Below, in pieces: positions 6,766 to 64,000 of a DNA stretch of 64,000 nt. How positions within the stretch are numbered: position 1 is the stretch's first letter; each line of letters starts with the position of its first letter. The stretch spans positions 2,356,001 through 2,420,000 of the forward strand of contig NZ_CP032627.1 of assembly GCF_003627095.1 (NCBI RefSeq), in the 5' to 3' direction. The position numbers and the translations under genes are program-made. The DNA is from Lactococcus allomyrinae. Lineage in GTDB: Bacteria > Bacillota > Bacilli > Lactobacillales > Streptococcaceae. Under the pieces are notes generated by a model. The model did not search any database and had not been told where the DNA came from. It worked only from the letters and a program-made list of their open reading frames with translations.

Positions 6766-8444
6766 ATGAAAAAAATAGATTTGTTAAAAAAAGTTGCTCT
6801 TCTTTGTGGCTTGCTTGTGACAATTGTCAATTTTAGGATAATTAGTGCCTCTACGATAGCAGAAAAAGTAGCAGTTGATTTACACGTTACTAATAATGGA
6901 GTACCAATTGTGGGGGGGCATATACCGCTTATAATTTAGACAATGCTTATCAAAAAATTATTTCGGGAGATATAACAAGTAAGATTACTCAAAGTTCAAA
7001 TTGGAAGACTTTGCAGTCTGAAGTCCAAGTGGATCCTACAAAGGTCAATCCAGATATAATTGAGTTTTCTAATGGTTTTTCTATAGGTCCTGGAATTAGG
7101 CATAGTGCAGAAGAAGCATTTTCTATAATGGGTTATATGCTTCAGATGAAGGGTCTTCCATTATTAACAGATCTTAATGGGAAGGAGACGGAAAGTATTG
7201 TATTCCACCAACCTGATAGAGGGAGAGCTGCTCTTACTTTTACCAATTTCTCAGGGGAGGCTATTGCTGAACTACCATTAGGACCAGTAGCAATAACAAC
7301 AAGAAGTGGAACTTTTCAAAAATTAGTTACAATATCAAAGGAAAAACAGAAGATAGATTTAGATATTGCTAATTTGGATAATCGGTTAAAGATTTCTTTT
7401 GAGGCTAGTAAAGGTGACAGTTTAACGGATTTTGGAAGATATGTAGTAGAGTCGGGACAGAGAAATTTTTTGAGTTTCAAAGTTATTATTTCTAAAAATT
7501 TCAATCGATTAGGAGGTGCGTTTGTTTTGACACCCTCTCCTAATTTGGTTATTGACTCTGTAACTCCAGATTCTAATATTGAAGGTTTTGATGTTTCGGC
7601 TATTACAGGATCAGGAACAAACCCATCAGAAAGTTTGAGCCAACAACTCATTGTTCCAGCTTTGTCCAATAATTTGGTGCTTACGGTGAAAGCGCATGTT
7701 ATTTCGACTCCTGTTGGAAGCATTTCGCCAGGTGGATCAACTATTTCTATTTCGGGAACAGATGATAATGCTTTGGCAGCAAGTGCAAAATCTCCAGCCG
7801 TTGTCCTTACTGGCATTAATTTTGCAATGGCAAATGAGCAAGGAAATAAATTAGTAACGAACAGGCAATATCTTTTGGGGAGATATGTGAAAAATGGGTA
7901 TGAGATATATTCTGCGACTCAAGGTTGGGTCAAAGAGGAAAGTTTGAAAGAAGTCAATTTGGAAAAAGTGACGGTTTTGAGAGGTGGATTACAATATATG
8001 ATTGGTAATTCGGAAATCCTTCCAATTCCTAAAGCTACAAGTCGATTTAACTTTAATGCTAAAGAAAACGGTAAGATTAACCAGTCGTTAATTCAGATTA
8101 TAGGACTTGCTGAAGGAAGTAACTATTTCATGTATCCTGTGGAAAATTCAACAGATAAAGAATTATTACTAAAACCGATTAATTTCTCTGTCTTTGCCAG
8201 ATTTAGCATCACTAGAGATGGTGTATTAATTACTAAAAATTCAATTGGAGAAGCAAGAAACCAGAACTTTTCTTTTAACACGAGCATTCCAGATTTTCAA
8301 AGTGGGGTTAATGAGTATAACGTCTTATCAATAGGGCAAAAAAAGTCTAACGAGTTTAATGCTCAGATAAAAATCATCTTACCGATAGTATTATTGACCT
8401 TGTTGATTGTTGTCATTGGTATCATTGCGGCAATAATTTTATAG
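6766..8444 (+). CDS. Pilin-like secreted surface protein, frameshifted in a G7 tract
   Basis: The ATG at 6766 starts a signal-peptide-like segment (MKKIDLLKKVALLCGLLVTI). The frame breaks at the G7 run 6912-6918; one more G would join it to the long downstream frame (PIVGG then AYTAYNLDNAYQKI), giving 559 residues. The body is rich in Thr, Ser, Gly and Asn, with segments resembling SpaA-like isopeptide pilin domains. The C-terminus is a hydrophobic anchor (IILPIVLLTLLIVVIGIIAA) with no LPxTG motif and no positive tail, so sortase attachment is not supported. The next internal ATG (7011) lacks a signal peptide and is an unlikely start. Function unknown beyond surface location. Confidence 0.6.
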
Positions 8445-49581: not shown

Positions 49582-49956
49582 TTAATAAAAGTCCTCTCAC
49601 TTCCAAAAACTTAATGAATAATTTTGTGACCAATTTTGCTGAATAATTTTCATTATAAATTGGACGTTTAGAGTCGTATGCCACATCAAAACTTGCGGAA
49701 GGTTTCCCATTGATTGCGTGCCTGCAAGTTTTTTCCCTACAAAATGAAAACGTTGGAGTGGCGACTTTGAAACTGTTTCTCAAAATTGAATTTTTCCAAA
49801 CTGTGACTATGGATTTTCAGTTAAAAAATCAATTTCGGAAGGGCTCAGACTAATGTAGACATCCTCAGCTTATGCTCAGTAAAGCTGTGCGGTCAATGTA
49901 CCGACTATTTTAACTGTGGAGCGTAGTCTTAAACTGTTCATATACTTCTTGAGTGG
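49582..49956. other. Gap downstream of luxS
   Basis: A 73-codon minus-strand frame (49562-49783) overlaps the small-protein gene and lacks a ribosome site; it is not called. Short inverted words (TCAGCTTATGCTCAGTAAAGC) are present. No terminator with a T run was found for luxS. Confidence 0.35.
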
Positions 49957-50433
49957 TTAGATCACTTTACGCTCAAATGGATTTGTTGAAATTCCTTCAG
50001 CGAGTATTTTTTTTGCCCATTCTTGTGCACCGAAAAGTGAATGATTTTTGTAATTTCCACATTCTTTCTCAGCTACGCCTGGGACATTATCCCAACCAAA
50101 TTCAGGACTTGCAAGTTCTTCAAGAGAGGACTTGATGACAACAGCGATTTCTTCTGTTGAATGTTCTCCCCACATAATCATGTGAAAACCAGTTTGACAA
50201 CCAAAAGGTGAAAAGTCAATCATACCATCAATGCGGTCGCGAATTAAACTTGCCATGCTGTGTTCGATTGTATGCAGAGCTGCCATACCAATGACGTTGG
50301 CATTGGGTTGAACGAAACGGACGTCAAAGTTAGTAATGATATCACCCTTAGGTCCTGTCTCGCTGCCGATGAGGCGCACATAAGGTGCGAGTACTTTTGT
50401 GTGGTCGAGTTGAAAAGATTCTACTTCTGCCAT
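49957..50433 (-). CDS. luxS: S-ribosylhomocysteine lyase LuxS
   Basis: 158 residues, full length. The metal site HTIEHSMAS (HxxEH) and FGCQTGF (catalytic Cys) are present. LuxS recycles S-adenosylhomocysteine and makes the AI-2 precursor. The first six codons lie in the left attachment site of the element described below. The promoter (TTGATA, 17 bp, TATAAT) and ribosome site (GGAGA) lie on the element side of that site. Confidence 0.97.
50415..50433. other. Left attachment site (attL) within luxS codons 1-6
   Basis: AAGATTCTACTTCTGCCAT matches 63802-63820 at 18 of 19 positions, in direct orientation. The 13-bp core AAGATTCTACTTC is identical. The site lies 150 bp from the integrase stop codon. 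Confidence 0.8.
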
Positions 50434-50460
50434 TTAAAATTCTCCATTTCTTTATTTTAC

Positions 50461-50489
50461 ATTATACTTCATAAAGCTTATAATATCAA
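50461..50489 (-). promoter_or_regulatory. Promoter for luxS, inside the element end
   Basis: On the minus strand TTGATA (50489-50484) and TATAAT (50466-50461) are 17 bp apart. It lies between attL and the integrase gene. Confidence 0.7.
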
Positions 50490-50551
50490 GCTTTATAAGT
50501 GTTTTTGTTAGTTTTATATTTCATCAAAAATCATCATTTTTAACTGAAAAA

Positions 50552-50569
50552 TTGTGCTTTTTATTGTGC
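50552..50569 (+). other. Integrase arm-type repeat, left
   Basis: Two TTGTGC words 12 bp apart. The identical arrangement is found at 63733-63750 near the other end, matching at 17 of 18 positions and in the same orientation. Confidence 0.6.
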
Positions 50570-50582
50570 CTAGAATATACTT

Positions 50583-51737
50583 TTAAGCAATTCGGGGTAA
50601 ATTATTTAAAACCTTTACAGCTTGTTGTTTTTGAGATGAAATTAAGTGGGTATAAATCTCACTTGTAGTTCGTGGACTAGAATGTCCAACTCTATCCATG
50701 ATTACTTTTTGGGGAACACCTGCAAGAACAAGAAGTGTGATGTGAGAATGTCGCAACATATGGGTTGAGAAGTATTTTGGATTCTTTGCCATTCCACCAT
50801 AATCTCCAACTTTTTTCATGAACTTATTTAGTGCACTATTTGGAAAAGGTTGCTTATGGATAGTTGGAAATACGAAATTACAATCTGATTTGGTTTTCAT
50901 CTCTTCCAAAATTTCTGCAGTACGTTCATCTATTGCAATATGACGAACAGATTGAATATTTTTGGTTGGACCGACTTTTCCAAGATTTATTTGCCAACTT
51001 TGACGAATATAAACGTCACGCATTAGAATGTCTACGTTTTTCCATTCAAGTGCTGCCGCTTCTCCATATCTACAACCAGTCAAAAAGATAAATTGTAATA
51101 AGAGTAAACGTCTGAGTCCCATTTCCCGATGATAAGAAGAACGTAAATTCTGTATATAACATTTTGCTGAATCTACAAATTCATTAAATTCATCAACTGT
51201 AAAGAATTTTAAATCATGTTTTTCTTTCTGTTCAATAGTTTGTTTAATTTTTGGTATTCTAATACGTTGCGCTTCATTTACATCAATATATCGCATAGCA
51301 AAAGCAAAGTCAAAGAATTGTATCAAGTGACGTTTGAACTCTCTTCGAGTATGTGGCTTATCAAAGAAATTCACAAACTTTTGAAGTTCAATGCTAGTCA
51401 CTGATTTTATTCTTTTTCCTCCAAAATCAAAATCATTTAAAAATGTGTCAAACTTTTGTTTTTCACGTAAAGCATAGCTATCAGCAATTTCTTGCTTTCT
51501 TGTATTCCAATAAATTTCAAAAACTTGAGATACAGTTGCATTGTGAAAAATGTCAAGTGCTTCACGTTCAGCAGCAAGTTTTTTCTCAATCCTCTGAGTG
51601 ATTAAATTTTTAGCTTGTCTTTGACTTTGTGCGCTAGCAGTTTCTAATGTTACAGTTACTTGCTTGCGTTTTCCACTTAAAGTTTTATAAGTATCGAAAA
51701 ATTTAACCTTTCCATTTGGTAATTTTTTATTATACAT
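50583..51737 (-). CDS. int: Tyrosine integrase of the element
   Basis: 384 residues. An N-terminal arm-binding domain (KLPNGKVKFFDTYKTLSGKR), a SAM-like core-binding domain (about 65-165) and a catalytic domain with GCRYGEA (Arg), HMLRHSHITLL (HxxR), GHSSPRTT and TSEIYTHL (Tyr). Phage/ICE type. It lies next to attL and reads towards luxS. Confidence 0.95.
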   Translation of the reverse strand: MYNKKLPNGKVKFFDTYKTLSGKRKQVTVTLETASAQSQRQAKNLITQRIEKKLAAEREALDIFHNATVSQVFEIYWNTRKQEIADSYALREKQKFDTFLNDFDFGGKRIKSVTSIELQKFVNFFDKPHTRREFKRHLIQFFDFAFAMRYIDVNEAQRIRIPKIKQTIEQKEKHDLKFFTVDEFNEFVDSAKCYIQNLRSSYHREMGLRRLLLLQFIFLTGCRYGEAAALEWKNVDILMRDVYIRQSWQINLGKVGPTKNIQSVRHIAIDERTAEILEEMKTKSDCNFVFPTIHKQPFPNSALNKFMKKVGDYGGMAKNPKYFSTHMLRHSHITLLVLAGVPQKVIMDRVGHSSPRTTSEIYTHLISSQKQQAVKVLNNLPRIA

Positions 51738-51809
51738 TTTGTTTAATCCTTCATATAGTAAAAGGCAAAACAGGTAGTTTTATTATACCATATTCCGCCT
51801 TAGCTGCTT

Positions 51810-52007
51810 TTAACGTTGTTCTTGTTTCCAACGAAGATATTTCTCATAACCTATCGGGTCAATCAGAACACGTTTTACCGTTGGGTTGATAATATAGTTA
51901 GAAAACTTGGACAAACGTCGCATAGCTGTTAAATCATTTCCAAGTGTTCCTTTATTTACGGAAAAGTACTCAGAAATCTCATCTTTAGTCATAAATTTTT
52001 TTATCAA
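51810..52007 (-). CDS. Xis-like small DNA-binding protein
   Basis: 65 residues. MTKDEISEYFSVNKGTLGND looks like a winged-helix/MerR-type start, followed by a basic end (RWKQEQR). The position between rep and int suggests an excisionase or directionality factor. It starts 11 bp after the rep stop, so it is co-transcribed. Assignment by context and pattern only. Confidence 0.6.
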   Translation of the reverse strand: MIKKFMTKDEISEYFSVNKGTLGNDLTAMRRLSKFSNYIINPTVKRVLIDPIGYEKYLRWKQEQR

Positions 52008-52017
52008 TTATTATCCC

Positions 52018-52623
52018 CTATTTATCTGTGATATTTTTTGAAGCTTTTCGTCTTGGATTATAACGGCGGGAGTCAAGAAATTTTGCAAAAAAATAGGTTT
52101 TATCTATTACCAAGTTTAGTAGCAAGTAGTTGTTTGCTCTTGCAAAATAAATCAACTCTTCAAATTCTGTAATGTCATTCTTTTCAATAAGATCAATGAC
52201 TTCGTTCAGAAATTCATCTGAAGCTTGCTCGCAAAGAAATTTATCTAATTCAAATCCTGCTCCAGATTCCATGTCTTCAATGTTATAGGGTGTTTTATCT
52301 GGGTTCTCTGCATGTGTGAAGTAATCAAACATGCCTTTTGGGCTCATGACCACCTCGATGTGTGATGGGCTATTTAATTTATCTTGTAAAAGTTCCGAGA
52401 CTTGACTATAACTTTTCAAAGTTTCAAAGAATAGTGCCCCGTGCTTATGAGACTTTTTGAACTCGCCAGTGGAGCGATTCACGTCTTTGTCATGCCATGG
52501 GCTGAGGACAAAAGGAACATGTAATTCTTCAAGTATATCAAGATAATCTTTAGGCGCAGATTCTTGGTAGATGAGAAACGCCCATTTATTAGTACGCTGT
52601 TCTTTTTTGATTTTTTTTGTCAT
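52018..52623 (-). CDS. Rolling-circle replication initiator, Rep_2 (pMV158 RepB) type
   Basis: 201 residues. The HUH motif is SHKHGALFF. The catalytic Tyr block YFTHAENPDKTPYN fits the RepB pattern Y-(L/F)-TH-nnPdK-Y. The start has WAFLIYQESAP and SPWHDKDVN. It nicks and rejoins DNA at the origin. In integrative mobilizable elements such proteins act as relaxases or drive replication after excision. A matching nick motif lies in the hairpin 80 bp upstream. GAAAGG precedes the ATG. Confidence 0.87.
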   Translation of the reverse strand: MTKKIKKEQRTNKWAFLIYQESAPKDYLDILEELHVPFVLSPWHDKDVNRSTGEFKKSHKHGALFFETLKSYSQVSELLQDKLNSPSHIEVVMSPKGMFDYFTHAENPDKTPYNIEDMESGAGFELDKFLCEQASDEFLNEVIDLIEKNDITEFEELIYFARANNYLLLNLVIDKTYFFAKFLDSRRYNPRRKASKNITDK

Positions 52624-52637
52624 ATTTTATTACCTTT

Positions 52638-52684
52638 CTATCTATCAGGAGGATTTATTGAGATTTTCGGAGTTTTTATTTCAT
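52638..52684. repeat. Duplicated leader motif, copy 1 (before rep)
   Basis: TCTATCTATCAGGAGGATTT continues to a TTCGGAG core. A related stretch lies at 54877-54923. Both sit in the 5' leaders of minus-strand transcripts of the element. Confidence 0.55.
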
Positions 52685-52701
52685 TGATGTGATTATTGAT
52701 T

Positions 52702-52741
52702 ATTGAACTAATGGGGGTCGTAGTCACCCCATTAGTTCAAT
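52702..52741 (-). other. Rolling-circle origin hairpin with a pMV158-type nick motif
   Basis: 15-nt perfect arms (52702-52716 and 52727-52741; ATTGAACTAATGGGG) frame a 10-nt loop. The minus strand reads GACTACGACCCCC across loop and stem; the known pMV158-family nick sequence is TACTACG/ACCCCC, 12 of 13 identical. It lies directly upstream of the Rep_2 gene. Likely double-strand origin and/or oriT. Confidence 0.8.
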
Positions 52742-52749
52742 AATGTAAA

Positions 52750-52809
52750 ATAATATAAAAGTGGTGCTTCGCCTCTTGCGTTGCAAGGCGAGCACCACTT
52801 TTATATTAT
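52750..52809 (-). terminator. Strong terminator at the end of the transfer operon
   Basis: A stem of 23 bp with one bulge (GTGGTGCTTCGCC / GGCGAGCACCAC extended by AT pairs) starts in the stop codon of the membrane protein gene and is followed by a T-rich tract on the minus strand. Confidence 0.75.
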
Positions 52810-53408
52810 CTTTTAGTACCAGTAAACCAAAGCTGATTTTTAGCACGTTCAGGGGTTGAGAAGATGTAATCAGGATTACGACTTGAAATTTCTTCTCTCA
52901 GTAATTCTTCCATTTCTTTTAGGATTTTTTGAGCTTGCTGCGAGTGTGGAATTTTGAAAAACACAAGTACTCGATCTTCTGTAATATCTACCACTGATTT
53001 TTTTACTGCTCGGTTAAAATCATGATAAATTGGATTGACAGTTATTTTTGACTGTGGTTCACGAAATGTTTTATCAATGCGTTCACTTTGTGAGGCAAAT
53101 CGTCTTAAGCTGAAAGTTTCGATGATAGATTTAAAATAATTTGATAATGCATCTTTTTTTAAACGTGAGATGATTTCAAATACTATGGAAAACATAAGTA
53201 AAAGAATCAAGGGAACGGTTGCCATGACAATTGAATCATGAAGTTTTTCAAAATAATCAGGAATCTTGCTCAATGGAGAAAAATTTCTTAAAGTTCCCAT
53301 TTTTGAAGCGAATACTCCAGATAATAAAACAAGGAATAAACCCAAAATTGAGCACATAAACAGATTTAAGTTAAAATTGAATGTTTTGATGAAGTACGTT
53401 TTTTTCAT
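52806..53408 (-). CDS. Element membrane protein beside the TcpA-like ATPase
   Basis: 200 residues with two membrane segments (about 15-35 and 62-80), followed by a cytoplasmic alpha/beta region ending in NQLWFTGTKR. No family recognised. It overlaps the ATPase gene by 4 bp (ATGA), so a partner in a coupling complex at the membrane is a fair inference. Confidence 0.65.
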   Translation of the reverse strand: MKKTYFIKTFNFNLNLFMCSILGLFLVLLSGVFASKMGTLRNFSPLSKIPDYFEKLHDSIVMATVPLILLLMFSIVFEIISRLKKDALSNYFKSIIETFSLRRFASQSERIDKTFREPQSKITVNPIYHDFNRAVKKSVVDITEDRVLVFFKIPHSQQAQKILKEMEELLREEISSRNPDYIFSTPERAKNQLWFTGTKR

Positions 53409-54481
53409 AAGATACCTTTTCTAGTATAATAGGTGGGAATCAAAAGAGGTAACACCTGGTAGGGATGCTCATTATCAATGATTTGAATGAGGCCTGTACC
53501 TTTGCCATTGGGGATAACGATACCTTCGGTATTTAAATCAGGAAATAAGAATTGAACGGTCTTACTATTGATGTTTCCGATTTGCATAAGTACGTTTAAC
53601 TGCTCACGTACACTGACAGGTATTGAGTGATAATCAAATCGTTGGCTGACAAGTAACATATGAACTTTTGTAGCTCTACCTAGAAGGGCAATTTGAGAAA
53701 GAAGTGAGAAGAAGGACTCTTTAATTGCTTTATTCACACCCTCAGAAATAGAGAGAACTTCATCAATAACTATTGTTAAATGAGTGAAATGATGTTCAGG
53801 ATTCTCGTATAGAATCGCTTGGCGTTGATTGATGAGATTCAAACTTTTGGAAAGTGCTTCATTGAGTTCAGAAACAAAGTCGGATTTACTGCGATTCATT
53901 TCTGGGTGTATTACTTTCACATCATTGACTTTTGCCCAACGCGAGGGAGTGTCAAACTTTGGGTCAATTACAATCAAATCTGAGATGGGTTTGAGCACTG
54001 TTAGAAAGTACGTCAAAGCATAAGATTTTCCACTTCCAGAATTCCCCGCAATTGCAATGCTAGTTACCTTATCGTAATCAATGGAGAGATTTTCCATGAG
54101 GGGGATTCTTGTTCCACTTTGTGAAGAGGCGAATTGTTCTAAATTTGAAATAATGAGCCGTTTTGAAATTCCTATTTTCCACGGAAAGAACAAGGCACGT
54201 TGAACGTGAATATCATCGGTATTAAGTGGGACAAAATAAGCGGAGGTTTGCTTTAACAAAGTGTAGCGTGGATAAAGAGATGCACTGGCGATTAGGAAAA
54301 TCTTCTGATACAATTCGTCATCAATGACGTAGCCTGCTGGCAAGCGAGGGATAAAATAAAATCCCTCTGTCTTTATCTTAACATCGAAAGAATTCGTATA
54401 GCTTGTTTCTCCTTGCATTTGTGATCCGAGCGCCATGTTTAAACTTTGGAGAATGTAGAGATTGAGTTGTGAGTCTGTCAT
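53405..54481 (-). CDS. FtsK/TcpA-type DNA translocase (coupling protein)
   Basis: 358 residues. Walker A GNSGSGKS (about 150), DLIVIDPKFD, Walker B HLTIVIDEV and LLVSQRF are typical of the FtsK/SpoIIIE-related TcpA coupling ATPases of Gram-positive conjugative and mobilizable elements. It has no membrane segment of its own; the next gene encodes one. It would deliver the nicked element DNA to a helper conjugation pore. Confidence 0.85.
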   Translation of the reverse strand: MTDSQLNLYILQSLNMALGSQMQGETSYTNSFDVKIKTEGFYFIPRLPAGYVIDDELYQKIFLIASASLYPRYTLLKQTSAYFVPLNTDDIHVQRALFFPWKIGISKRLIISNLEQFASSQSGTRIPLMENLSIDYDKVTSIAIAGNSGSGKSYALTYFLTVLKPISDLIVIDPKFDTPSRWAKVNDVKVIHPEMNRSKSDFVSELNEALSKSLNLINQRQAILYENPEHHFTHLTIVIDEVLSISEGVNKAIKESFFSLLSQIALLGRATKVHMLLVSQRFDYHSIPVSVREQLNVLMQIGNINSKTVQFLFPDLNTEGIVIPNGKGTGLIQIIDNEHPYQVLPLLIPTYYTRKGIL

Positions 54482-54798
54482 TATTTGAACTCTTTTATTC
54501 CATCTGCCTTGAAATAGACATTATAAGATACTTCCACAGCTTGAAGGTTAATAAACTCCACCACTGACAAATAGGGTGGAAGTTGAACTTCATTAGAAAA
54601 TTTGACTTCAAAAGGAGGCAAACCAACCTGTGTAAACCACGCTTTATAAGCGATAATTTCCCCTGTTGGCTTCTTATCCTCAAATTTTTGTTGGGGAGTA
54701 AGTGAATCAGAAATAGAATGAACAGGCTTGCTCTTATCTAAGATGGAATGAGCGAGTGATGATGAGTAACCATCTTGACGACGTGTATTAAATTTCAT
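54481..54798 (-). CDS. Small element protein, possibly DUF961-like
   Basis: 105 residues. The C-terminal half (VEFINLQAVEVSYNVYFKAD) weakly resembles DUF961 proteins of Tn916-type elements, which have VELINP...WYIKADDI near the end. It precedes the ATPase gene with a 1-base overlap, as DUF961 genes do in such modules. This family link is tentative. Confidence 0.45.
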   Translation of the reverse strand: MKFNTRRQDGYSSSLAHSILDKSKPVHSISDSLTPQQKFEDKKPTGEIIAYKAWFTQVGLPPFEVKFSNEVQLPPYLSVVEFINLQAVEVSYNVYFKADGIKEFK

Positions 54799-54876
54799 GT
54801 GTAGGATTCCTTTCTAGAATCTAAATAGTAGTGTGTGACTGCTCGATTTATATCCTGAGCTGGATTTATTTTACTT

Positions 54877-54923
54877 TCTTATCTATCAGGAGAAATAAAT
54901 CGAAATTTCGGAGATTTTTATAA
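54877..54923. repeat. Duplicated leader motif, copy 2 (before the transfer operon)
   Basis: TTATCTATCAGGAGAAATAA then a TTTCGGAG core, matching 52638-52684 at most positions. It lies about 80 bp upstream of the first gene of the minus-strand transfer operon. Confidence 0.55.
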
Positions 54924-55000
54924 AAGAACTTCCTTTGACATATTTTTCTAAACTATTTTATGTTAAAATGATCAAATAAAAGGCAGAAACGCTCCATACG

Positions 55001-55038
55001 TAAAAAAGCCAATTAAGAGGTGAGTCCTAATTGGCTTT
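55001..55038 (-). terminator. Terminator of the sigma-like gene
   Basis: AAAGCCAATTA / TAATTGGCTTT with a 12-nt loop; on the minus strand a T6 run follows. Confidence 0.8.
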
Positions 55039-55042
55039 AGTT

Positions 55043-55504
55043 TTATTTTACAAGTGATTGAAGATGTGTAAATATCTTCACAAAGTGTTTCTTAACTGTT
55101 TTATCACTCATTTGAATCCCTTTGGTAAGGAGAGTCTCGGATAATTCTTTCCAATTTTGATGATTGGGATAAAATCCAGATTCTTGATACGTTGTAAAGA
55201 TAATGAAATCAATAGGTTTCAGAGTCTCTAAAGCTGCTTCTAACCTATCCTTATGCTCATTCTGCTTTTCCTTAGCCATCAAAGCCTCCTCTGGATTTAA
55301 GTCGCTACTGGTTAGAAAATCTTCTAGCTCGTTCGATTTGGTTATTCCGACTTTGTAGTTTGTACTATGTACATGATGATAGCGAAGCTTACGCTGATGA
55401 TTTGCTTCAATTTTTTTAGCTAATGCTTCAGAAGCTTTTGTATTAACATTTTGTGCGGTTTCAACAATTTCTTTGTAAAGCTTCTCTAAAGCTTTAGCAT
55501 CCAA
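55043..55504 (-). CDS. Sigma-70 region 4-like or ArpU-like regulator, start uncertain
   Basis: 153 residues from a TTG. LEAALETLKPIDFIIFTTYQ and LLTKGIQMSDKTVKKHFVKI form a C-terminal helix-turn-helix of sigma-region-4 appearance. The TTG lies inside the end of the small frame at 55494-55613. Removing one A from the A6 run (minus strand, 55513-55518) would fuse the two into one protein of about 190 residues beginning MTKIEERHDKELIEA, with a continuous helix across the join. It may be a regulator of element transfer. Confidence 0.55.
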   Translation of the reverse strand: MDAKALEKLYKEIVETAQNVNTKASEALAKKIEANHQRKLRYHHVHSTNYKVGITKSNELEDFLTSSDLNPEEALMAKEKQNEHKDRLEAALETLKPIDFIIFTTYQESGFYPNHQNWKELSETLLTKGIQMSDKTVKKHFVKIFTHLQSLVK

Positions 55505-55613
55505 GAGTTGCGTTTTTTAATAAATCATGATATTTATTTTCTAAAGCTTTCAAATTTCCGCGATTGATCGCTTCGATGAGTTCTTTATCATGACGTTCTT
55601 CAATTTTAGTCAT
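55494..55613 (-). CDS. Short frame upstream of the sigma-like gene (possible N-terminus)
   Basis: 39 residues from an ATG: MTKIEERHDKELIEAINRGN then LKALENKYHDLLK. Charged and helical. It is probably the true start of the next gene if the A6 run has one base too many; otherwise a small regulator with overlapping stop and start. Confidence 0.45.
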   Translation of the reverse strand: MTKIEERHDKELIEAINRGNLKALENKYHDLLKNATLGC

Positions 55614-55882
55614 TGGGCTTCTTCCCGCCAAAAGGAAGGAAAGAAACAATCTCTAATTTTGATAAAAGGTGTCAAAACTTTGGAGAAAATCAGAATTGGC
55701 AAATATTTATTCACTTCTTCTGTGTTTCAATCCGTCCGTTTTGATGGCGCCACCATTTTTGGACTTTTAGAATTTATCAAGACTTACTATTTCTTGATAT
55801 ACTTATCATCTCAAAATATAAAATCAACAAAAAGGCAAAATGCAAGAAACAATATCTTTGTGAAAAAAGGAGCAAAAAGTAG

Positions 55883-57502
55883 ATGGGGAATTTTATAAAT
55901 GAACTTTTGAATAACTTGAGTAAAATGGGATTTACCTACAATAAGATTCATGAAAGAACAGGAATAGCAAAACTTAATCTGTCAAAGTGGAGAAATGGAG
56001 AGAGTAAGCCCAATCAAGACAACTTGTTAAAATTACGGGATTTTGCTTTGGAACTCCTCACCGAAAATGGATTTAATTTTCCCCTAAAAAAGGAATATAG
56101 GGAACCACTTGAAAAATTTTATAGATATGCGGAAGAAGTTTTACAAGAAATGCCAAAAAAGAACCATAAGGAAGCAACTATTCTGTCAGACCATGTAGAT
56201 AATCAAGAAGCACTGCAATTTTTAAAACCAGCATTGGATTTTGGACTGTTTGATTCATACATAAACTTTAATAGCAGGAGTGGCTTTAATCTTGAGCATA
56301 AAGGACAGATTGAGCGGAAAATTGAAAAACAGTATCAATCCATGTTTATTTTAAACTTTAATTTATTGATTGATTTTATTGATAATAACTCAGATAAAGA
56401 TGTTAAAGCTTTACTTTGTAAAAACTGGACGAGAGAACGAGCTGAGCAATTTTATAATAATCTTCCGCATGAAGAAGACTATGAAGAGCTTGAGAATGTT
56501 TCTTTCATCCCATCTATTGCGGAATTTTGGCTTGCACAGAAATTAAAAGTAAGCAAAACTCAAATTAGAAACTGGAAAATTGGAAAAGACTTTCCAACAG
56601 AAGAAAACCTATCTAAATTGAAGAAGCTATTACATTTGAATGGTAAGATGGCGTTTTTAGGCTATGAATTTCCAAAATGGCAACTTGAAAGTATGTTTTT
56701 ACCAGACATAGATGAAAAATTAAGAAAAAAAGATGAAGATTTTCTCTATTACGAAACTCTAGAATTTTTTATTCAGGTTCTGTTTTTCTACTGTGGTGAG
56801 ACTTTGCTTATCAAGCAATTAAAAGATGATATGGAAAATAGCTTGACCGAGGAAGTGCAGGAAAATGTAGTAACTGAATTTTTTAGAGAATTCCATAATC
56901 TGAAAGTAGTACGTGAAATTATTCCAAATGAGGAGACTTATAAAAATTTGCCAAATTTAGCTTCTTATTTTGATATGAGTGATCAACAGGTTGATTACAT
57001 ACTTAGAAAAGATGAATCATTGTTAAGACAAGTCTTTAAGAAAGAGCATGTGAACTTACTAAAAGAAGTAAGTGAAAATAGATGCTTCGTTGAAGAGCAG
57101 AAAGAACAGCTAGATGAGCTTGTTTCTCTTCTTGAAAATAGGAAAGGCGTAAATTTTCCTTATTTCAAATTTAGATTCTTGTATTTCCCAGATAATCATA
57201 GTGTAGATGATGTTGAAGAAATAACACAAGGGTTGGCGTTATTTTTAACAATTCCAAGTATATTCAAGTGGTTTCATTCAGACTATTCTTTTGAAAATTT
57301 ATCAGATAAAGAGCAAAGTGAGGTTATGGGCTTTGCCAATTTGGCTCTTCTGAATAATAACCAAGAGTTAAAAGAAAAGGTAAAAAGGTATGCGATTAAA
57401 AAGCTTAGAAGTGACACTGAGTTGCCCTATTACGATTTATTAGTTTTCTTTGAAGATTTAACAGTGCCGTCAGTAGTGCAAAAAATATTTGGTAAAAAGT
57501 AG
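55883..57502 (+). CDS. Large protein of unknown function with an XRE-like start and internal HTH-like segments
   Basis: 539 residues, AAGGAG upstream. Residues 12-50 look like an XRE helix-turn-helix (YNKIHERTGIAKLNLSKWRN). A second similar segment is at about 208-245 (IAEFWLAQKLKVSKTQIRNW) and a weaker third at about 352-375 (LASYFDMSDQQVDYILRK). The rest is helical and acidic with no enzyme motif seen and no membrane segment. It is transcribed alone, divergent from the transfer module. No family recognised; regulator, phage-sensing or abortive-infection roles are all open. Confidence 0.7.
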   Translation: MGNFINELLNNLSKMGFTYNKIHERTGIAKLNLSKWRNGESKPNQDNLLKLRDFALELLTENGFNFPLKKEYREPLEKFYRYAEEVLQEMPKKNHKEATILSDHVDNQEALQFLKPALDFGLFDSYINFNSRSGFNLEHKGQIERKIEKQYQSMFILNFNLLIDFIDNNSDKDVKALLCKNWTRERAEQFYNNLPHEEDYEELENVSFIPSIAEFWLAQKLKVSKTQIRNWKIGKDFPTEENLSKLKKLLHLNGKMAFLGYEFPKWQLESMFLPDIDEKLRKKDEDFLYYETLEFFIQVLFFYCGETLLIKQLKDDMENSLTEEVQENVVTEFFREFHNLKVVREIIPNEETYKNLPNLASYFDMSDQQVDYILRKDESLLRQVFKKEHVNLLKEVSENRCFVEEQKEQLDELVSLLENRKGVNFPYFKFRFLYFPDNHSVDDVEEITQGLALFLTIPSIFKWFHSDYSFENLSDKEQSEVMGFANLALLNNNQELKEKVKRYAIKKLRSDTELPYYDLLVFFEDLTVPSVVQKIFGKK

Positions 57503-57964
57503 GATTTTATGCTATTTTTCTTTTTCGGAAATATAGAATGTTTTGATAAATTAGAGAAGCCCTGATAAGGTATCTAGTATCGCATCAAGATATAATATAA
57601 AAAATCTATAATTCTTGATCAGATAGTGATAAATTTTTATTTGATATAGTTTAGATGAAGTTCGTCATATCGCTAACAATGAATAAAAAAACTTGCAAAT
57701 TATTAATGATAAAACATAAATTGCATTTGGAGAGTTAACAATATAAAACGAGTTCGCAATTTAATAGTAAATTTGCAAAGTCGGTAAAAGGAGTTTCAAA
57801 GAGTTAGGTTAATGAAATTTTCCGACTTCCATACTTACAGAATGTTTTAAAGAGCTTATAAGATATAATGAGGAGAAATATGTAAATTTCTCTCAAAAGA
57901 TATCTGTATTAGCAATCGTTATATTGTTGAGTAAAAGTCATCTCTAAGGGTGATAAAAATAGTA
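57503..57964. other. AT-rich gap in the element
   Basis: About 460 bp with no gene. AACGAGTTCGCAA occurs near 57742, a word otherwise seen in the chromosomal leaders. TATAAT-like words are frequent because of the AT content and are not diagnostic. Confidence 0.35.
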
Positions 57965-58007
57965 AAAAAAACAGATAGATTGTAAATTATATCTGTTTTT
58001 TTCTTTA
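57965..58007. terminator. Bidirectional terminator
   Basis: AAAAAAACAGATA / TATCTGTTTTTTT around an 12-nt loop, just before the end of the minus-strand lipoprotein gene. Confidence 0.8.
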
Positions 58008-58015
58008 AGTAATAT

Positions 58016-59014
58016 TTATTTTGGAATAACAGATTGACGTTCTGCATGCATTCCGAGCTGGTCTTCTGAAACATCATAAATATAATCGCCATCTGTTGCA
58101 AAAATTTTATCAATAACAGAAGTAGAGTATTTAAATCCGAATTTTAATTTTTCTTTTGAATCTCTAGATATCTTATCAAAGTCTATAGAGTCAAGTTCTA
58201 TTGGTGTTAGAGCAACTAGTTTACTCACATTGATGTTATTCCTTCTTGAATAAAGTTGGTTTATAGTCGTTATAGGAAATGGCTTGTCATGAAGTAATAA
58301 AGGTTTGCTGTCAAGAAGATTTTCTAAATCAGAATTACCTGATTTTTTTATACCAGCTTCATCTGTTTCTTCATTGACAGAATTGAAGAATGATCCATTT
58401 TTAATGAAGCTGTATTCATTAAGTTTAGAGGTATCTTTCAGAAGGCTACTTATTTCATCTTTATCTTGTAGTGTATCACTAAAGACATAAGTTGCTTCAG
58501 CTTTATCATCAAGGTATAAATCACTTGAGTATGATAATGGAACTAGAAAATAGATTCCGTTTTTTTCCACAACTCGGCCTTGAGAAAGTGTGTTATATTC
58601 TCCATAATTAGCATAGAAGGGGTTTGTTTGCACCTCATTATTTTCATCAAAATAAAATTCTATTTTTGAGGAATGAGCGGCTTCCTCCATCGGTGCTTGA
58701 GATGCACGTAAAATACGAGTATACCGGCCATCAGCATATATCTTGATGGGAGTGTCAGGAGACCCAGGTAACTCGTAATATCCAACGATATCATTTATAT
58801 TCTGAGGTGCTTTGTAGTCAATATCCCAAAAGTCCACAAAATCATAGCTGTTTTCTTTCCCCTCTTCTAACTCATCAAAAGTTGGACTTGATGGGATGGA
58901 AGAAGACGTTTGTATGGCTTCATGATTCTTAGAAGTGGAGTTTTTTTCGGAAGTACATCCAATTAGCAATATTAAACTCATACCAAGGGTTAGAGCAAGA
59001 CTTAGTTTTTTCAA
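58016..59014 (-). CDS. Lipoprotein of unknown function, element cargo
   Basis: 332 residues. Signal MKKLSLALTLGMSLILLIGC with lipobox LIGC, so it is lipid-anchored outside the membrane. A Ser/Thr/Glu-rich linker (25-60) leads to a globular part beginning DIVGYYELPGSPDTPIKIYA, a lipocalin-like GxYEL/GRY pattern. No family recognised. It is divergent from an XRE repressor, an arrangement found for superinfection-exclusion lipoproteins of phages and elements (for example Ltp), so a surface exclusion role is possible but unproven. Confidence 0.7.
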   Translation of the reverse strand: MKKLSLALTLGMSLILLIGCTSEKNSTSKNHEAIQTSSSIPSSPTFDELEEGKENSYDFVDFWDIDYKAPQNINDIVGYYELPGSPDTPIKIYADGRYTRILRASQAPMEEAAHSSKIEFYFDENNEVQTNPFYANYGEYNTLSQGRVVEKNGIYFLVPLSYSSDLYLDDKAEATYVFSDTLQDKDEISSLLKDTSKLNEYSFIKNGSFFNSVNEETDEAGIKKSGNSDLENLLDSKPLLLHDKPFPITTINQLYSRRNNINVSKLVALTPIELDSIDFDKISRDSKEKLKFGFKYSTSVIDKIFATDGDYIYDVSEDQLGMHAERQSVIPK

Positions 59015-59038
59015 ATTTTCCTCCTAAAATAACATTAA

Positions 59039-59112
59039 AAATGATTGTTATGACATTTATTATACCATAAAACACAAAAAATGACATTAAAAATGTTTTT
59101 TGAGACATTTTA
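59039..59112. promoter_or_regulatory. Putative XRE operators between lipoprotein and repressor genes
   Basis: The word ACATTAAAAATG occurs at about 59032 and 59083, and a third related GACATTTTAAAA at about 59103. They flank promoter-like sequence for both divergent genes. Likely binding sites for the XRE protein. Confidence 0.5.
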
Positions 59113-59154
59113 AAAATACCTTTGTTTGTTATTCTTTAAAAAAGGATGAAAAAA

Positions 59155-59469
59155 ATGAATATTGAGTATTTAGGTGATAAGTTAAAAGCAGCTAGGAAAA
59201 GCAAAAATTTAACTCAAAAGAGTCTTGCCGAAAGGGTGGGAGTGAAGACAAGAACAGTTGCATCATATGAACAGGGGAGTGCCTATCCATCTCTAGAAAT
59301 CTTTGGAAAGTTATGTGATACACTGAATATATCTGCAGATTATCTTTTAGGGATATCTGATAAGATGCCATTAGAGATGGGGGGATTGACAGATGAACAA
59401 ATGCAGTTGTTTTTTCAACTCATCTCTATCGTGGAGCAATTCAATAATCATAATGAATCGAAAAAATAA
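59155..59469 (+). CDS. XRE-family repressor of the element
   Basis: 104 residues from the ATG at 59155, which has better ribosome-site spacing than the ATG at 59146. LKAARKSKNLTQKSLAERVG and VKTRTVASYEQGSAYPSLEIF form the HTH; LNISADYLLG is typical of this family. It probably controls itself and the divergent lipoprotein gene. Confidence 0.88.
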   Translation: MNIEYLGDKLKAARKSKNLTQKSLAERVGVKTRTVASYEQGSAYPSLEIFGKLCDTLNISADYLLGISDKMPLEMGGLTDEQMQLFFQLISIVEQFNNHNESKK

Positions 59470-59749
59470 TATTGTCTCTGATTGTTTTATAAAAAAAGGA
59501 TGAAATATATTTTTAAGATTATTTGGTTGAAAGCAAATGAAGTTACAATTGTAAGTAAATCTGAAAAATGATGTTATCCTTAGACTAGGGAATTATTTAT
59601 AAATAAATACTAATTAAAAAATATTGATTTATACATATATTGACTAGCATGTATAAGCCATGCTAGAATTATCATTATAAATTACTATTTTATACTAAAA
59701 AGCTAATCAAGAACAGGATAGCTGTAAGGATTTTTTTCTAGGAGATTTT
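59470..59749. other. Gap before the restriction gene
   Basis: AT-rich, about 280 bp, no gene. It should hold the promoter of the restriction endonuclease; no confident boxes chosen. TAGGAG lies before the ATG at 59750. Confidence 0.35.
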
Positions 59750-60805
59750 ATGCTTTATTACACAGGACTAGAGGATATTATATTCTCTAAACATGAACTG
59801 TTATCTGCCCCCCCTGATGAACTCATAATTATAAGTGGATATTTAGGGCCCGCTCCAGTTGAGCGATTATCTGAGTTACCAAATATAAAAATTACAGTTA
59901 TAGGTGGAATGTACTCTTCAGGGATAGACGCAAGACTATTAAACTCGTTGAATAATAGTAAAAATAATAATTCAAGCTTAACTATTAAGTATGCACGACA
60001 AGAAATTCATTCCAAAATTTATATTTGGAAAAAAAATGGTAAAATTCTTTCTGCATTAATCGGTTCAGCTAATTTTTCTTCAAAGGGACTTCGTACAGAT
60101 TATCGTGAATCACTAGCAGATGCAACGAGAGATACGTTCAATCCACTAAATATTTATTTTAATTTTATAAACGAACATTCTGAAGAAGAACCTATTATAA
60201 ATAAAAAACAGGAAATAATTGAGTTTACTCAAGATAACCATAAAGTTACAGATGTGGCAGCGACAATGTTAAACAAAAAATTTAGTTTTGAGATCCCCCT
60301 GTATTCATCTACTAAAGAAAAAGGAAAGTTTGTTCCTCTAGCTAGTGGACTAAATTGGGGAAGAGCACGTTTAACAAGTAACGCACATGTTGCTAAGGGG
60401 GATGCATATATTCGTCTTCCTAAAAGCATACTAAAGCAAGAACAACAATTAATAAAACCATTTGATTCAGGTTTTACTACTCCAGAAGGAGAAAGAAAAC
60501 GAAATTCAGATCCAATTGAACTTATTTGGGATGACGGTACAACTATGGAAGCTTCATTAGAAGGTGTTCAGAAGTTTAATGGTAGGACCTATCCTAAGCA
60601 ACTCGCTTCATATACGAGTAAACGACCATTTCAAAATGGTAAACCAATATCTAAAAAAAGTATTTTAGGACGATATATTCGTAAGAGATTAGGGGTAAAT
60701 ATAGATGATGAAATCACCATGAAAACCCTTGAACTTTATGGTAGAGATACCATCACTCTTTCTTTAATTGAAGAAGGTGTCTATTACGCTGATTTTTCTG
60801 TATAA
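59750..60805 (+). CDS. PLD-fold restriction endonuclease, NgoFVII-like
   Basis: 351 residues. The N-terminal half is a phospholipase-D fold: HSKIYIWKKNGKIL and later GSANFSS (HxK...GSxNFS), with ARQEIHSK preceding. The start LIIISGYLGPAPVERLSELP fits the NgoFVII group of type II enzymes. The C-terminal half (about 185-351) has no membrane segment and probably recognises DNA. It converges on two cytosine methyltransferase genes with only 28 bp between. Site specificity cannot be read; NgoFVII itself cuts at GCSGC. Confidence 0.8.
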   Translation: MLYYTGLEDIIFSKHELLSAPPDELIIISGYLGPAPVERLSELPNIKITVIGGMYSSGIDARLLNSLNNSKNNNSSLTIKYARQEIHSKIYIWKKNGKILSALIGSANFSSKGLRTDYRESLADATRDTFNPLNIYFNFINEHSEEEPIINKKQEIIEFTQDNHKVTDVAATMLNKKFSFEIPLYSSTKEKGKFVPLASGLNWGRARLTSNAHVAKGDAYIRLPKSILKQEQQLIKPFDSGFTTPEGERKRNSDPIELIWDDGTTMEASLEGVQKFNGRTYPKQLASYTSKRPFQNGKPISKKSILGRYIRKRLGVNIDDEITMKTLELYGRDTITLSLIEEGVYYADFSV

Positions 60806-60810
60806 GTAAT

Positions 60811-60840
60811 AAAAATAGATGTGAAATCACATCTATTTTT
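60811..60840. terminator. Shared terminator of the R and M genes
   Basis: A 30-nt palindrome with 14-nt arms (AAAAATAGATGTGA and complement) flanked by A and T runs. The end of the methyltransferase gene, including its stop, lies in the palindrome. Confidence 0.85.
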
Positions 60841-62059
60841 CTAAGTCAGATAAATTATTGAATAAAATATTAACTGCCGATCCTAATTTTTTCCCAAATA
60901 GAGGTGGGACAGCGTTACCAATCATTTCAAAGTTTGATAATTGTGATTCAGTAAATTCAAAATCATCATCAAAAGTTTGTAACTTTGCTGCTTCTCTCAC
61001 TGTGATAGATCTTCTCTGTTTAGGATCAGGATGAATATGCCTTAAACCATCTTTTTTTAAATGAGCAGGTATGGTATTACTTGGTTCATCCCATTTTAAT
61101 ACATGATACTTATGAATATTTGTTCGTTTTCCAGTTTTTTGATAGTACAAATCAATCAGCGAGTTTGTAGAACTATACATATTGGTGCCATCTTCAATAT
61201 CTTTTGCTAGTATATGAAAAATTTCTTGATCACGTAAGTTATGGTATCTTGCAACATGACCATTAATTTTATTATCGTTTGTATATGCATTCCGTTTGTC
61301 TTGCTTAACTAATGGATAAATAGGCGGTAGACTAGAAATTGCATCTCGTACTGTTTTCTTAGTTTTTACTTTTTCTTTACCAAGAATATCGATATAAAAA
61401 TTATGTAGTATATGTTGATAGTCGATACTTGTTATGTCTCTTCTTATTCCGATAATAATGACACGTTTTCTTTTTTGAGGTACACCAAATTCAGATAAAT
61501 CAATAAGAGCATATTTACGTAAATCATCAACTATTTCATAACCCACTTCATCGAAAGCTTTTCGTATCAAATCAGTTATTTTTTCTCCGGTTGGTATTGC
61601 AGACAATATACCTTCAACATTCTCAAATACAACAACTTTGGGACGATAATGTTTTACTATTCGGATATAAGCTTCAAATAAAAAATTACGATAATCATCT
61701 TTCATACCATTATTATCCCGTATCCTTCCTGCAAGTGAATACGCTTGACAAGGAGGACCACCAGAAATTACATGAACTTCCTGATCCTTTACTAAATTGT
61801 CTAATCCCTTGGAAGTTCCAAATTCAACATCTTCACTCCAACCATTTATTAACTCAGAAGTCCTCTGGATATCAAAGTTTAAAACTCTATCATCCGCATT
61901 AGAAAAATTATATTTTGTCTCCAACCTATTAACAAGAGTTCTGACTTGAGGTTTTAACCACTCAACTGCACCTAATAAATTGTATTTCCCAGTTTGTTCA
62001 AAACCATCTAATAAACCACCTGCTCCTGCAAAAAGTTCAATATTATTTAATTTGTTCAT
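60833..62059 (-). CDS. DNA cytosine-C5 methyltransferase, second of the pair
   Basis: 408 residues. Motif I ELFAGAGGLLDGF, IV GPPCQAYSLAGR with the catalytic Cys, VI FENVEGIL, VIII region KKRKRVIIIGIR, IX REAAKLQTFDDDF and X MIGNAVPPLFG: complete and in order. It overlaps the first methyltransferase by 4 bp (ATGA). The target-recognition region between VIII and IX is about 110 residues and differs from the partner's. Confidence 0.93.
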   Translation of the reverse strand: MNKLNNIELFAGAGGLLDGFEQTGKYNLLGAVEWLKPQVRTLVNRLETKYNFSNADDRVLNFDIQRTSELINGWSEDVEFGTSKGLDNLVKDQEVHVISGGPPCQAYSLAGRIRDNNGMKDDYRNFLFEAYIRIVKHYRPKVVVFENVEGILSAIPTGEKITDLIRKAFDEVGYEIVDDLRKYALIDLSEFGVPQKRKRVIIIGIRRDITSIDYQHILHNFYIDILGKEKVKTKKTVRDAISSLPPIYPLVKQDKRNAYTNDNKINGHVARYHNLRDQEIFHILAKDIEDGTNMYSSTNSLIDLYYQKTGKRTNIHKYHVLKWDEPSNTIPAHLKKDGLRHIHPDPKQRRSITVREAAKLQTFDDDFEFTESQLSNFEMIGNAVPPLFGKKLGSAVNILFNNLSDLEK

Positions 62060-63167
62060 TTTATCTCCTTAGAGGGATTTTTTTTATAATTATCTAAATA
62101 ATATTTCATTTGCTCCCCTATAGCTTGAGCTAGTAAAGGAGGAACTGCGTTACCTACTTGTTTGTTTTGTTGAGTTTTTGTTCCTAAAAATTCAAAATGA
62201 TCAGGAAAAGATTGAAGACGTGCATTTTCTCGAACAGTAGGTACACGATTCCATTTATAGTGAAAATGATTCCTATGGCCAGTATCTATAGTTTTAGATG
62301 GCTTTTGACTGTGATAACGAGTCCATGCTTCATTAAATTTTCTTGATTCTCCAACTCCTGGTGGCAAATCTTTATGGTTACCTCCTTCTGGGACTTGACT
62401 GATAACCCACTTGACTTCATCAGTGTGCTTCGTTCCGACATGATTATAAAGTATATTAGATTTTGTTCTCATTAGTTTTTGATAATCACTTAGAGGCTCA
62501 GATGTATACTTTGCTATATTTTCCCCAAGTTCATCTCCTTCTAACGAAGGGAGATCAGAGATTGCAGCAGCTGTACCAATATAATGTTCTGAATCAAGCT
62601 TTGGATTAGGAAATTTAAACTTTTCAAGCCCTAAGTCTTTTCTAAAACCAACAAAAAACATACGCTTTCTGAATTGAGGAACACCATAATCTGCAGCAAG
62701 TAGTGGCTTGTCCGTGACACTAACAGAATATCCCAAATCTTCAAAAGTATTTATAATCTGCTCCTTTACCTTTCCATTGTATAAAGTTGCCATGCCAGGG
62801 ACGTTTTCTATCAGAAAAGCTTTAGGCTTAAAGTGTTTTACAGCATGCACCACTGCTACGTAAAGTTTGTTTCTAGAATCATTTATATCTCTTGATCCTG
62901 TTAAACTAAATCCTTGACAGGGGGGCCTGCAATAATTACATCTAGGTTTTGATTATTTATTTCTTTTTCTATATCTGCAATTGCTCTTTCTTCATCAAAT
63001 AAATCTTCTTTTAGAGCCTTGGCTCCTTGGATATTATGAGCGTAGGTTTTCAAAGCGGAGTCATCAAAGTCGATTCCCGCCAATAACTTAAAACCTGCTT
63101 GCACAAATCCTTGACTTAATCCACCAGCACCAGAAAATAAATCAATCGCTGTATATTTATTTTTCAT
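62056..63167 (-). CDS. DNA cytosine-C5 methyltransferase, first of the pair, frameshifted in a C6 run
   Basis: As written, the gene splits into 62901-63167 (motif I DLFSGAGGLSQGF, ending IIAGPPVKDLV) and 62056-62853. One more C in the C6 run (62920-62925) restores PPCQGFSLTGSRDINDSRNK and one frame of 370 residues. Motifs VI (ENVPGMAT), VIII (RKRMFFVGFRKD), IX (RENARLQSFPDHF) and X (QVGNAVPPLL) are intact. With the correction it is a normal enzyme. Since an unmethylated site would be lethal with an active nuclease, a working gene is likely. Confidence 0.9.
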
Positions 63168-63378
63168 TTATTTCACCTCTTTTTTTAAATTCAATTATTT
63201 CTCCAATATTGCACTCAAGGGCAATACAAATTCTTTCAAGTGCTTCTAGAGAAACGCCCTGATTCTTGCTAAGTCTTGCTAAAGTAGCTGAGGTTATTCC
63301 TGCACAATCTCTGAGTTGGGTTTTGTTTAAATTCTTATCAATTGCCAACTTCCAAAGCTTATCATAACAAATAGACAT
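63157..63378 (-). CDS. XRE-type controller protein of the restriction system
   Basis: 73 residues. A single HTH: LNKTQLRDCAGITSATLARL, then VSLEALERICIALECNIGEI, in the YozG/C-protein size class. It overlaps the start of the first methyltransferase by 11 bp, as regulators of type II systems often do. Likely keeps methyltransferase and nuclease levels in balance. Confidence 0.8.
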   Translation of the reverse strand: MSICYDKLWKLAIDKNLNKTQLRDCAGITSATLARLSKNQGVSLEALERICIALECNIGEIIEFKKRGEINEK

Positions 63379-63576
63379 AACTACCTCTTTCTCTATTTAT
63401 AAATAAAAATTCTTCATAAATAGAATTGTATCATAATTTTAACCTTGTTGTATAATAAATAGCATATCGTCCTACTGGAACTATACTATTATCTAAAACA
63501 ACGCGAAATCAACAGGAAAACTTTTCAATTCATTTAAGAAGTAAGATTATCTTGTTTTGAGTATATCGAACAATGT

Positions 63577-63714
63577 TATAATAACTATAACCCTCATCTA
63601 GCCCCTAATCAAAAAGAATTAGAATATTTTAAAAATAAAGTTCTATTTTTGTGTCTAATTATTTGTCATTAAGTCCAGAAAATCAGTCCATCTGTAGTTT
63701 GGACTGATTTTTTT
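63577..63714 (+). ncRNA. Candidate small RNA near the right end of the element
   Basis: An extended -10 (TGTTATAAT, 63574-63582) starts a stretch with no gene. It contains a stem AATTAGA/TCTAATT (63617-63623, 63654-63660) with an inner AAAAATA/TATTTTT, and ends in a strong terminator (AAAATCAGTCCA/TGGACTGATTTT, 63679-63711, T run). The predicted transcript is about 125 nt. The -35 is poor. Not recognised as a known RNA. Confidence 0.4.
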
Positions 63715-63732
63715 ACCTATTTCGCTCTTGAG

Positions 63733-63750
63733 TTGTGCTTTTTGTTGTGC
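63733..63750 (+). other. Integrase arm-type repeat, right
   Basis: Two TTGTGC words 12 bp apart, as at 50552-50569. Confidence 0.6.
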
Positions 63751-63801
63751 TTTTATTAACTGCAAATTTAGAAGCAGTAATATCTAGGCTTTGAAGTCAT
63801 T

Positions 63802-63820
63802 AAGATTCTACTTCAGCCAT
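63802..63820. other. Right attachment site (attR), a duplicate of the luxS start
   Basis: AAGATTCTACTTCAGCCAT; on the minus strand ATG GCT GAA GTA GAA TCT, then TAA. It encodes MAEVES, the first six residues of LuxS, with one silent change (GCT for GCA). No ribosome site precedes it. Confidence 0.8.
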
Positions 63821-64000
63821 AATATTTTAGATACTGAGGTCGATTGAAGATTTTGAGTCTAAAAACAAAAAGGCCCTGTCTCGGAATTCAGTATCATCCT
63901 CCTTTAATGTGTGATATGAGTTCGCTCTGGTTATTTTAATTTCAAGGAGGGCGAACCCAATTTTTATATGTTTTATATTATTTTAACATTTTTTGGTCGA
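63821..64000. other. Chromosomal flank to the right of the element
   Basis: No gene recognised. GTTCGCTCT and AGGGCGAAC form a hairpin near 63920-63956, and GAGTTCG occurs again, as in other chromosomal leaders here. Confidence 0.35.

Follow-up and report, generated by a model that had tools for sequence, protein, structure and literature searches.

A 13,387-bp element (positions 50434-63820, including one core copy) occupies the start of luxS in Lactococcus allomyrinae. The window analyzed is a 64,000-nt stretch of contig NZ_CP032627.1 from this host (genome G000), and coordinates are window positions unless a locus is named. Insertion into the luxS start is site-specific and was found in two hosts. 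We consider it very likely that an integrative and mobilizable element (IME) integrates at this site and brings a replacement for the 5′ end of luxS inside its attachment site, attP. The observed parts are the insertion site, the core, the element-side promoter sequence and its conservation, a conserved terminator at the other end, and one empty-site relative for each of the two hosts.

The target gene luxS (49957-50433, minus strand) is intact and encodes 158 amino acids that match the Pfam LuxS family (2.8e-51) and are 99% identical to the protein of genome G011. The attL core (50415-50433, minus strand; ATGGCAGAAGTAGAATCTT) comprises its start codon and first six codons. An earlier note on this DNA had proposed that these codons recur in direct orientation at 63802-63820 with 18 of 19 bp shared, and this was borne out: the attR core (minus strand; ATGGCTGAAGTAGAATCTT) is identical in 18/19 bases, and the core pattern, with W at the differing base, has exactly two matches in the 2.76-Mb genome and none in a backwards control. 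The attR copy retains the native start codon and stops after MAEVES, as the note had also read; it runs ATG GCT GAA GTA GAA TCT TAA. Paired arm repeats of the form TTGTGC-6-TTGTGC lie inside both ends as had been described (50552-50569 and 63733-63750, plus strand); a pattern search allowing up to two mismatches gave two matches, against a mean of 0.02 in shuffled sequences. The claim that a tyrosine integrase adjoins luxS was likewise correct (50583-51737, minus strand; Phage_integrase 6e-24).

An empty site was found in G011 (locus L135), where luxS is contiguous with the sequence located beyond attR in the window. Window 49941-50433 aligned with L135 7369-7861 and window 63802-64125 with L135 7843-8166, and the two flanks overlapped at L135 7843-7861, which is exactly the 19-bp core; the core copies thus coincide with the ends of the inserted DNA. 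An open reading frame (ORF) that we read as aldo/keto reductase-like lies further beyond in both the window and G011. L. cremoris NBRC 100676 (genome G001, locus L128) carries a related element at the same luxS nucleotide (core copies: 5187 and 19049), and comparison with the empty site of G007 (locus L136) again gave a 19-bp flank overlap (7871-7889). Such empty sites, found for both hosts, mark the insertion at the luxS start as site-specific. The second luxS codon reads GCA at attL, whereas attR and G011 both have GCT. If GCT was also the codon of the host, the luxS start codon in the window would itself have come from the element.

The left end holds the promoter, the ribosome site and the start of luxS between the arm repeats and the core. 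The predicted outward promoter, TTGATA-17-TATAAT, extends from 50489 to 50461 on the minus strand and matches 11/12 hexamer positions; the region has one more site of this quality. A GGAG ribosome site follows at 50442-50445 (minus strand) and is conserved in eight aligned left ends. Both are on the element side of attL, in line with the earlier note. Consensus scanning by itself had no evidential value (62 promoter-like sites versus 60.3 expected), so the evidence for the promoter is its conservation between genomes. A 30-bp block written from the known copies, TTGATATWATWRNNTTYATGRAGTATAATG, occurred at nine sites in 8 of the 335 family genomes, with no control sites; eight of these stop 24-27 bp short of the luxS ATG, and the remaining one lies at a tandem-element junction in G044 (loci L129 and L133). 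The hexamers, the 17-bp spacing and the GGAG are kept in G044 though its backbone is only 70-73% identical to that of the window, and each of the three integrase-bearing copies beside luxS has a near-consensus promoter and a ribosome site immediately in front of the gene. The strength of the promoter and its activity in luxS expression are predictions. A second near-consensus promoter (50456-50484, plus strand) overlaps the first on the other strand and is directed toward the element interior, antisense to int.

In the window host and in L. cremoris, element DNA immediately precedes luxS and the native leader, with a promoter-like region, is still present beyond attR. Empty-site relatives have other sequences upstream of luxS, and the promoter pattern was absent from the empty sites of G011 and G007. 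The proposal that the element places luxS under its own promoter therefore stands as far as the replacement of promoter and leader in the sequence is concerned, with the promoter itself being a predicted one. The displaced leader occupies 63830-64000 (minus strand) and includes hairpin arms (63830-63837 and 63888-63895), a Shine-Dalgarno sequence (63897-63905) and the native promoter region (approximately 63975-64002). Judged from these sequences, the insertion swaps the native leader of luxS for a plain one.

The native leaders of the lactis/cremoris type (L135, L136, L008, L128 and window 63830-63905) have a hairpin between the Shine-Dalgarno sequence and the start codon, an arrangement that L064 and L065 may share. 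The motif AAAGGAGG occurs 50-78 nt before the ATG in G011, G007, G012 and the displaced leaders of the window and L. cremoris. In these five leaders a stem (GATAC.../...GTATC) between the motif and the ATG would shorten that distance to about 10 nt, with loops that vary in length and sequence. Shuffled-energy z-scores were −2.6, −2.9 and −2.6 in three leaders, −0.3 in G011 and +0.3 in the window (−1.3 and −1.9 in L064 and L065). Folding energy alone is no proof of the hairpin since the scores support it in only three of the five leaders. Rfam gave no matches on seven loci.

The right ends of the window element, the L. cremoris element and the G044 tandem align over the core, about 50 bp, the arm repeats, about 25 bp and a hairpin with T-runs, which in the window is a terminator at 63679-63714 (no strand assigned). 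We read paired changes in the stem from the alignment of G044. The hairpin was not reported by the terminator scan, which has a loop limit of 8, whereas the loop here is 9. The distance from the core ATG to the terminator end is 142 bp, so that in an excised circle the outward promoter would meet the terminator before any element gene.

These parts suggest the following mechanism. Recombination by the tyrosine integrase would take place between attP and the first 19 bp of luxS, and since the crossover falls in the gene start, the element would carry a replacement 5′ end made up of arm repeats, promoter, ribosome site and start codon. In the integrated state luxS would be read from the element promoter, with the protein unchanged, while the native promoter and leader would be severed at the far end, where the conserved terminator would insulate the element. 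In the circle, the same promoter would run through the core and stop at the terminator. Since the circle transcript should end there, short of any element gene, the promoter most likely serves luxS and would have the purpose of keeping it expressed when the element is integrated.

To find relatives we searched for the integrase in the 335 family genomes, counting near-full-length matches among those listed. Among the matches listed, three genomes (G000, G001 and G044) had such integrases with at least 70% identity; fragments of 81-86% identity occurred in G045. Over 7.6 kb (including 0.5 kb of luxS) the elements of the window and L. cremoris share 91.5% identity, versus 71-80% in the three longest alignments of the host flanks, with short ones up to 84%. 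Given this difference, the element has probably moved horizontally. A third, diverged copy lies beside luxS in G044 and is followed in tandem by a second left end; these tandem ends are on L129 and L133:1-8501. Remnants were found in G045 (integrase tails) and G039 (a left end with arms; the integrase of the window has no match in 19.5 kb of this genome). The window and L. cremoris share the promoter block with the elements or remnants of G044, G045 and G039, and the left-end likeness extends to the arm repeats. For L. hircilactis and L. plantarum it is limited to the promoter and nearby bases, with no recognizable arms; that this promoter may be the scar of a lost element is one reading only.

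In a tree of 28 luxS genes, on which we labeled the promoter types, the promoter type requires at least four changes. Strong branches join the window with G011 and L. cremoris with G007, both partners being of the native type; a weaker one joins L. hircilactis with L. fujiensis (91/88). No displaced promoter of the lactococcal type was found in L. hircilactis. Outside the family, 1 of 395 order genomes, a sample drawn evenly from a larger group, had a match at E ≤ 1e-60, and this was the window's own. Of 101 luxS loci taken from contigs, 80 were kept, several with short flanks; seven integrase queries matched three of them (L048, L072, and L116 with a 23% match about 2.7 kb from luxS). In L. 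termiticola (G017, L131:9718-12011) an integrase with 56% identity stops about 150 bp short of a gene that we read as galE-like, and this site has arm-like repeats and a similar upstream block, which suggests a sister element aimed at another gene start. This element could not be delimited because no second core was found in two 20-kb stretches with 4-5 substitutions allowed.

Several observations weigh against the preferred explanation. The promoter pattern stands before luxS with no intact element seen in five other genomes (G005, G039, G045, G046 and G047), of which G045 and G039 have element remnants and G047 is represented by a contig of only 3.3 kb. The promoter type extends through the whole piscium/plantarum clade (all five members in the tree) and no displaced promoter of the other type was found in six loci scanned, so the promoter may be native there. 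The T-run behind the terminator of the window is short in the luxS direction (TTTTC), and the FtsK match of the element ATPase is weaker than the Pfam cut-off. Furthermore, int faces luxS and the scan reported no terminator-like site in the 149 bp between them; read-through from int could also transcribe luxS. The promoter sequence would then be incidental and luxS mainly transcribed from int or another element promoter, much as a promoter inside int drives mutL in the decayed island SpyCIM5, as given in the part of PMC3430984 concerned. We regard this as unlikely in view of the conservation of hexamers, spacing and GGAG in the diverged G044 copy, and of the same signals in G039, where the integrase was not matched. 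Roughly as improbable is a switch of the SpyCI kind, in which insertion would alter or silence luxS and growth-phase excision would restore native control. SpyCIM1 in the 5′ end of mutL does block transcription and excise in exponential growth (PMC4689407 and PMC4701971, in the parts concerned), but the promoter and ribosome site before luxS in the three integrase-bearing copies argue against silencing here.

The clade-wide pattern would also fit promoter capture, in which attP would have picked up the luxS promoter ancestral to the piscium/plantarum clade within that clade and brought it to L. lactis-like hosts, L. cremoris and perhaps L. hircilactis. We find this possible, though doubtful: it agrees with the five of five clade members and the six loci lacking the relatives' other type, but G039, G044 and G045 have element arms or integrase sequence at luxS, so that an old insertion in the clade ancestor explains the same pattern, and the clade node is weakly supported (83/76). 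The preferred reading, an element bringing its own luxS start, may be extended to a mobile gene-start cassette, which we put forward tentatively. The luxS promoter, ribosome site and start codon would be part of an attachment site that travels between lactococcal genera, replaces the host leader by one fixed promoter at each insertion, and can persist as a permanent promoter after element decay (G039, G045, perhaps L. plantarum and L. hircilactis); the L. termiticola case would suggest that the design can move to other genes. That the promoter may travel in attP and may outlive its element is supported by the sequence comparisons.

The element is probably a transferable IME. It has its own integrase and att sites delimited by the empty site and the 19-bp core. 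Next to the integrase gene lies a small ORF in the position of an excisionase, a name we assign by inference (51810-52007, minus strand; 98% identity in L. cremoris, no Pfam or NCBIfam match). It is followed on the minus strand by a protein with Rep_OBD and RepB_C domains (52018-52623; PF01719 1.7e-44, PF21861 2.6e-16, both over cut-off), presumably a relaxase or rolling-circle initiator. A presumed transfer module comprises an ORF for a conserved 200-aa protein (52806-53408), an FtsK/TcpA-like ATPase as presumed coupling protein (53405-54481; FtsK_SpoIIIE 3.3e-4, 77.7% identity to annotated FtsK proteins of lactococcal plasmids) and an ORF for a conserved 105-aa protein (54481-54798), all on the minus strand. 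In the 15 element proteins scanned with Pfam, other short ORFs being outside the scan, there was no match for type IV secretion components, for VirB4 or similar conjugation machinery of an integrative and conjugative element (ICE), or for phage-like replication and packaging genes as in SpyCI or phage-inducible islands. Elsewhere in G000, three TraG-type matches point to possible mobilization helpers; excision and mobilization are predicted from gene content.

Plasmid origin of the whole element was rejected, as 50434-57502 has no near plasmid DNA match, though Rep and ATPase have plasmid relatives (about 67-78% identity, many lactococcal, among the matches listed). A prophage or phage-inducible island is highly improbable. 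The integrase is distantly related to phage integrases, with best places all below 60% identity, but there is no structural or packaging family in the scanned proteins, no near DNA match in phages and no confirmed IMG/VR relative by a method that detects close relatives only, and Rep and ATPase match plasmid proteins instead. Prophage origin was rejected on the IMG/VR, phage integrase and phage DNA comparisons.

The remainder encodes a weakly sigma-like protein (55043-55504, minus strand; NCBIfam match far under cut-off), a large helix-turn-helix (HTH) regulator-like protein (55883-57502, plus strand; HTH_3 2.9e-7), a protein of unknown family whose start we read as lipoprotein-like (58016-59014, minus strand; no Pfam match, 86% identity in L. 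cremoris) and, by family search, a Cro/C1-type repressor-like protein (59146-59469, plus strand). The cargo consists of an NgoFVII-like restriction endonuclease (59750-60805, plus strand; PF09565 3.3e-34, PF20731 3e-30), a C5 cytosine DNA methyltransferase (60833-62059, minus strand; family search) and a second one (62056-63167, minus strand; ORFs and family search) split in two frames (62056-62853 and 62901-63167), adjoined by an HTH protein (63157-63378, minus strand; family search). The split, with six consecutive G close by (about 62920-62925), may reflect a frame-shift, phase variation or a sequencing error. Cargo varies: instead of this restriction-modification system, L. cremoris has a SMODS cyclase and a SLATT effector, which we label as resembling a cyclic-oligonucleotide-based antiphage signaling system (CBASS), with a DUF4062 protein and one protein with a sub-threshold match also present (L128:5497-11431). 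In G044 an insertion sequence (IS) and arsenic-type genes lie between the tandem ends, as read from ORFs without a family search. A link between the cargo methyltransferases and luxS was dropped, as the four L. cremoris cargo ORFs scanned contained no methyltransferase.

An element that inserts at the beginning of a gene must either damage that gene or provide a replacement. In this case the attachment site itself contains the replacement, which is conserved and has a terminator as its counterpart at the opposite end, and empty-site relatives exist. This opens the way to testing whether selection on mobile elements builds promoters that protect a host gene, and raises the question of how control of autoinducer-2 (AI-2) and the methyl cycle shifts once luxS loses its own leader. 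Otherwise luxS would be one more 5′-end integration site.

The earlier note knew of no described element that targets luxS this way, and we found none in the literature searched, which mostly excludes subscription journals. The word luxS has no occurrence in the main text of PMC5357655, PMC4701971, PMC5704250, PMC7563491, PMC12479173 and PMC13335696, and the luxS passages concerned in PMC9652813, PMC8401462, PMC9008345 and PMC5383145 deal only with AI-2 biology or acid stress. Targeting of 5′ ends with promoter replacement is already known from ebfC, rbgA and SpyCI/mutL; luxS as a target and the combination of a promoter in attP with a terminator are new as far as found.

Four known groups can be compared with the element, the published ones on the parts of the papers concerned. 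The streptococcal IME survey of Coluzzi et al. 2017 (PMC5357655) lists 11 target genes for tyrosine IMEs, mostly with insertion at 3′ ends, in contrast to the luxS 5′ end. Its Rel_PF01719 elements have in common with the present one an outward tyrosine integrase at one end, a PF01719 Rep-type relaxase, an FtsK/TcpA-like ATPase and no secretion genes seen. Lactococcal rep/ftsK plasmids such as pUCCL628C share the ATPase (77.7% identity), the Rep (71.8%) and the order 105-aa protein, FtsK, hypothetical protein and Rep; they differ in being plasmids, and the integrase relatives in plasmids are all below 60% identity. The ICEs in the 5′ ends of ebfC, rbgA and ftsK (Ambroset et al. 2016, PMC4701971) resemble the element in inserting into a conserved gene start with the N-terminus unchanged, and one insertion in ebfC and two in rbgA have entirely different DNA upstream, promoter included. 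They use other genes, and the part concerned describes no conserved promoter within attP or insulating terminator. The closest functional precedent is SpyCI, islands that insert in the 5′ end of mutL, take over its expression and block it, with the decayed SpyCIM5 rescuing the gene via its promoter inside int (Scott et al. 2012, PMC3430984). SpyCI is phage-like and its rescue promoter is tied to a decayed island, whereas the luxS element has a conserved promoter by the core together with a complete integrase gene.

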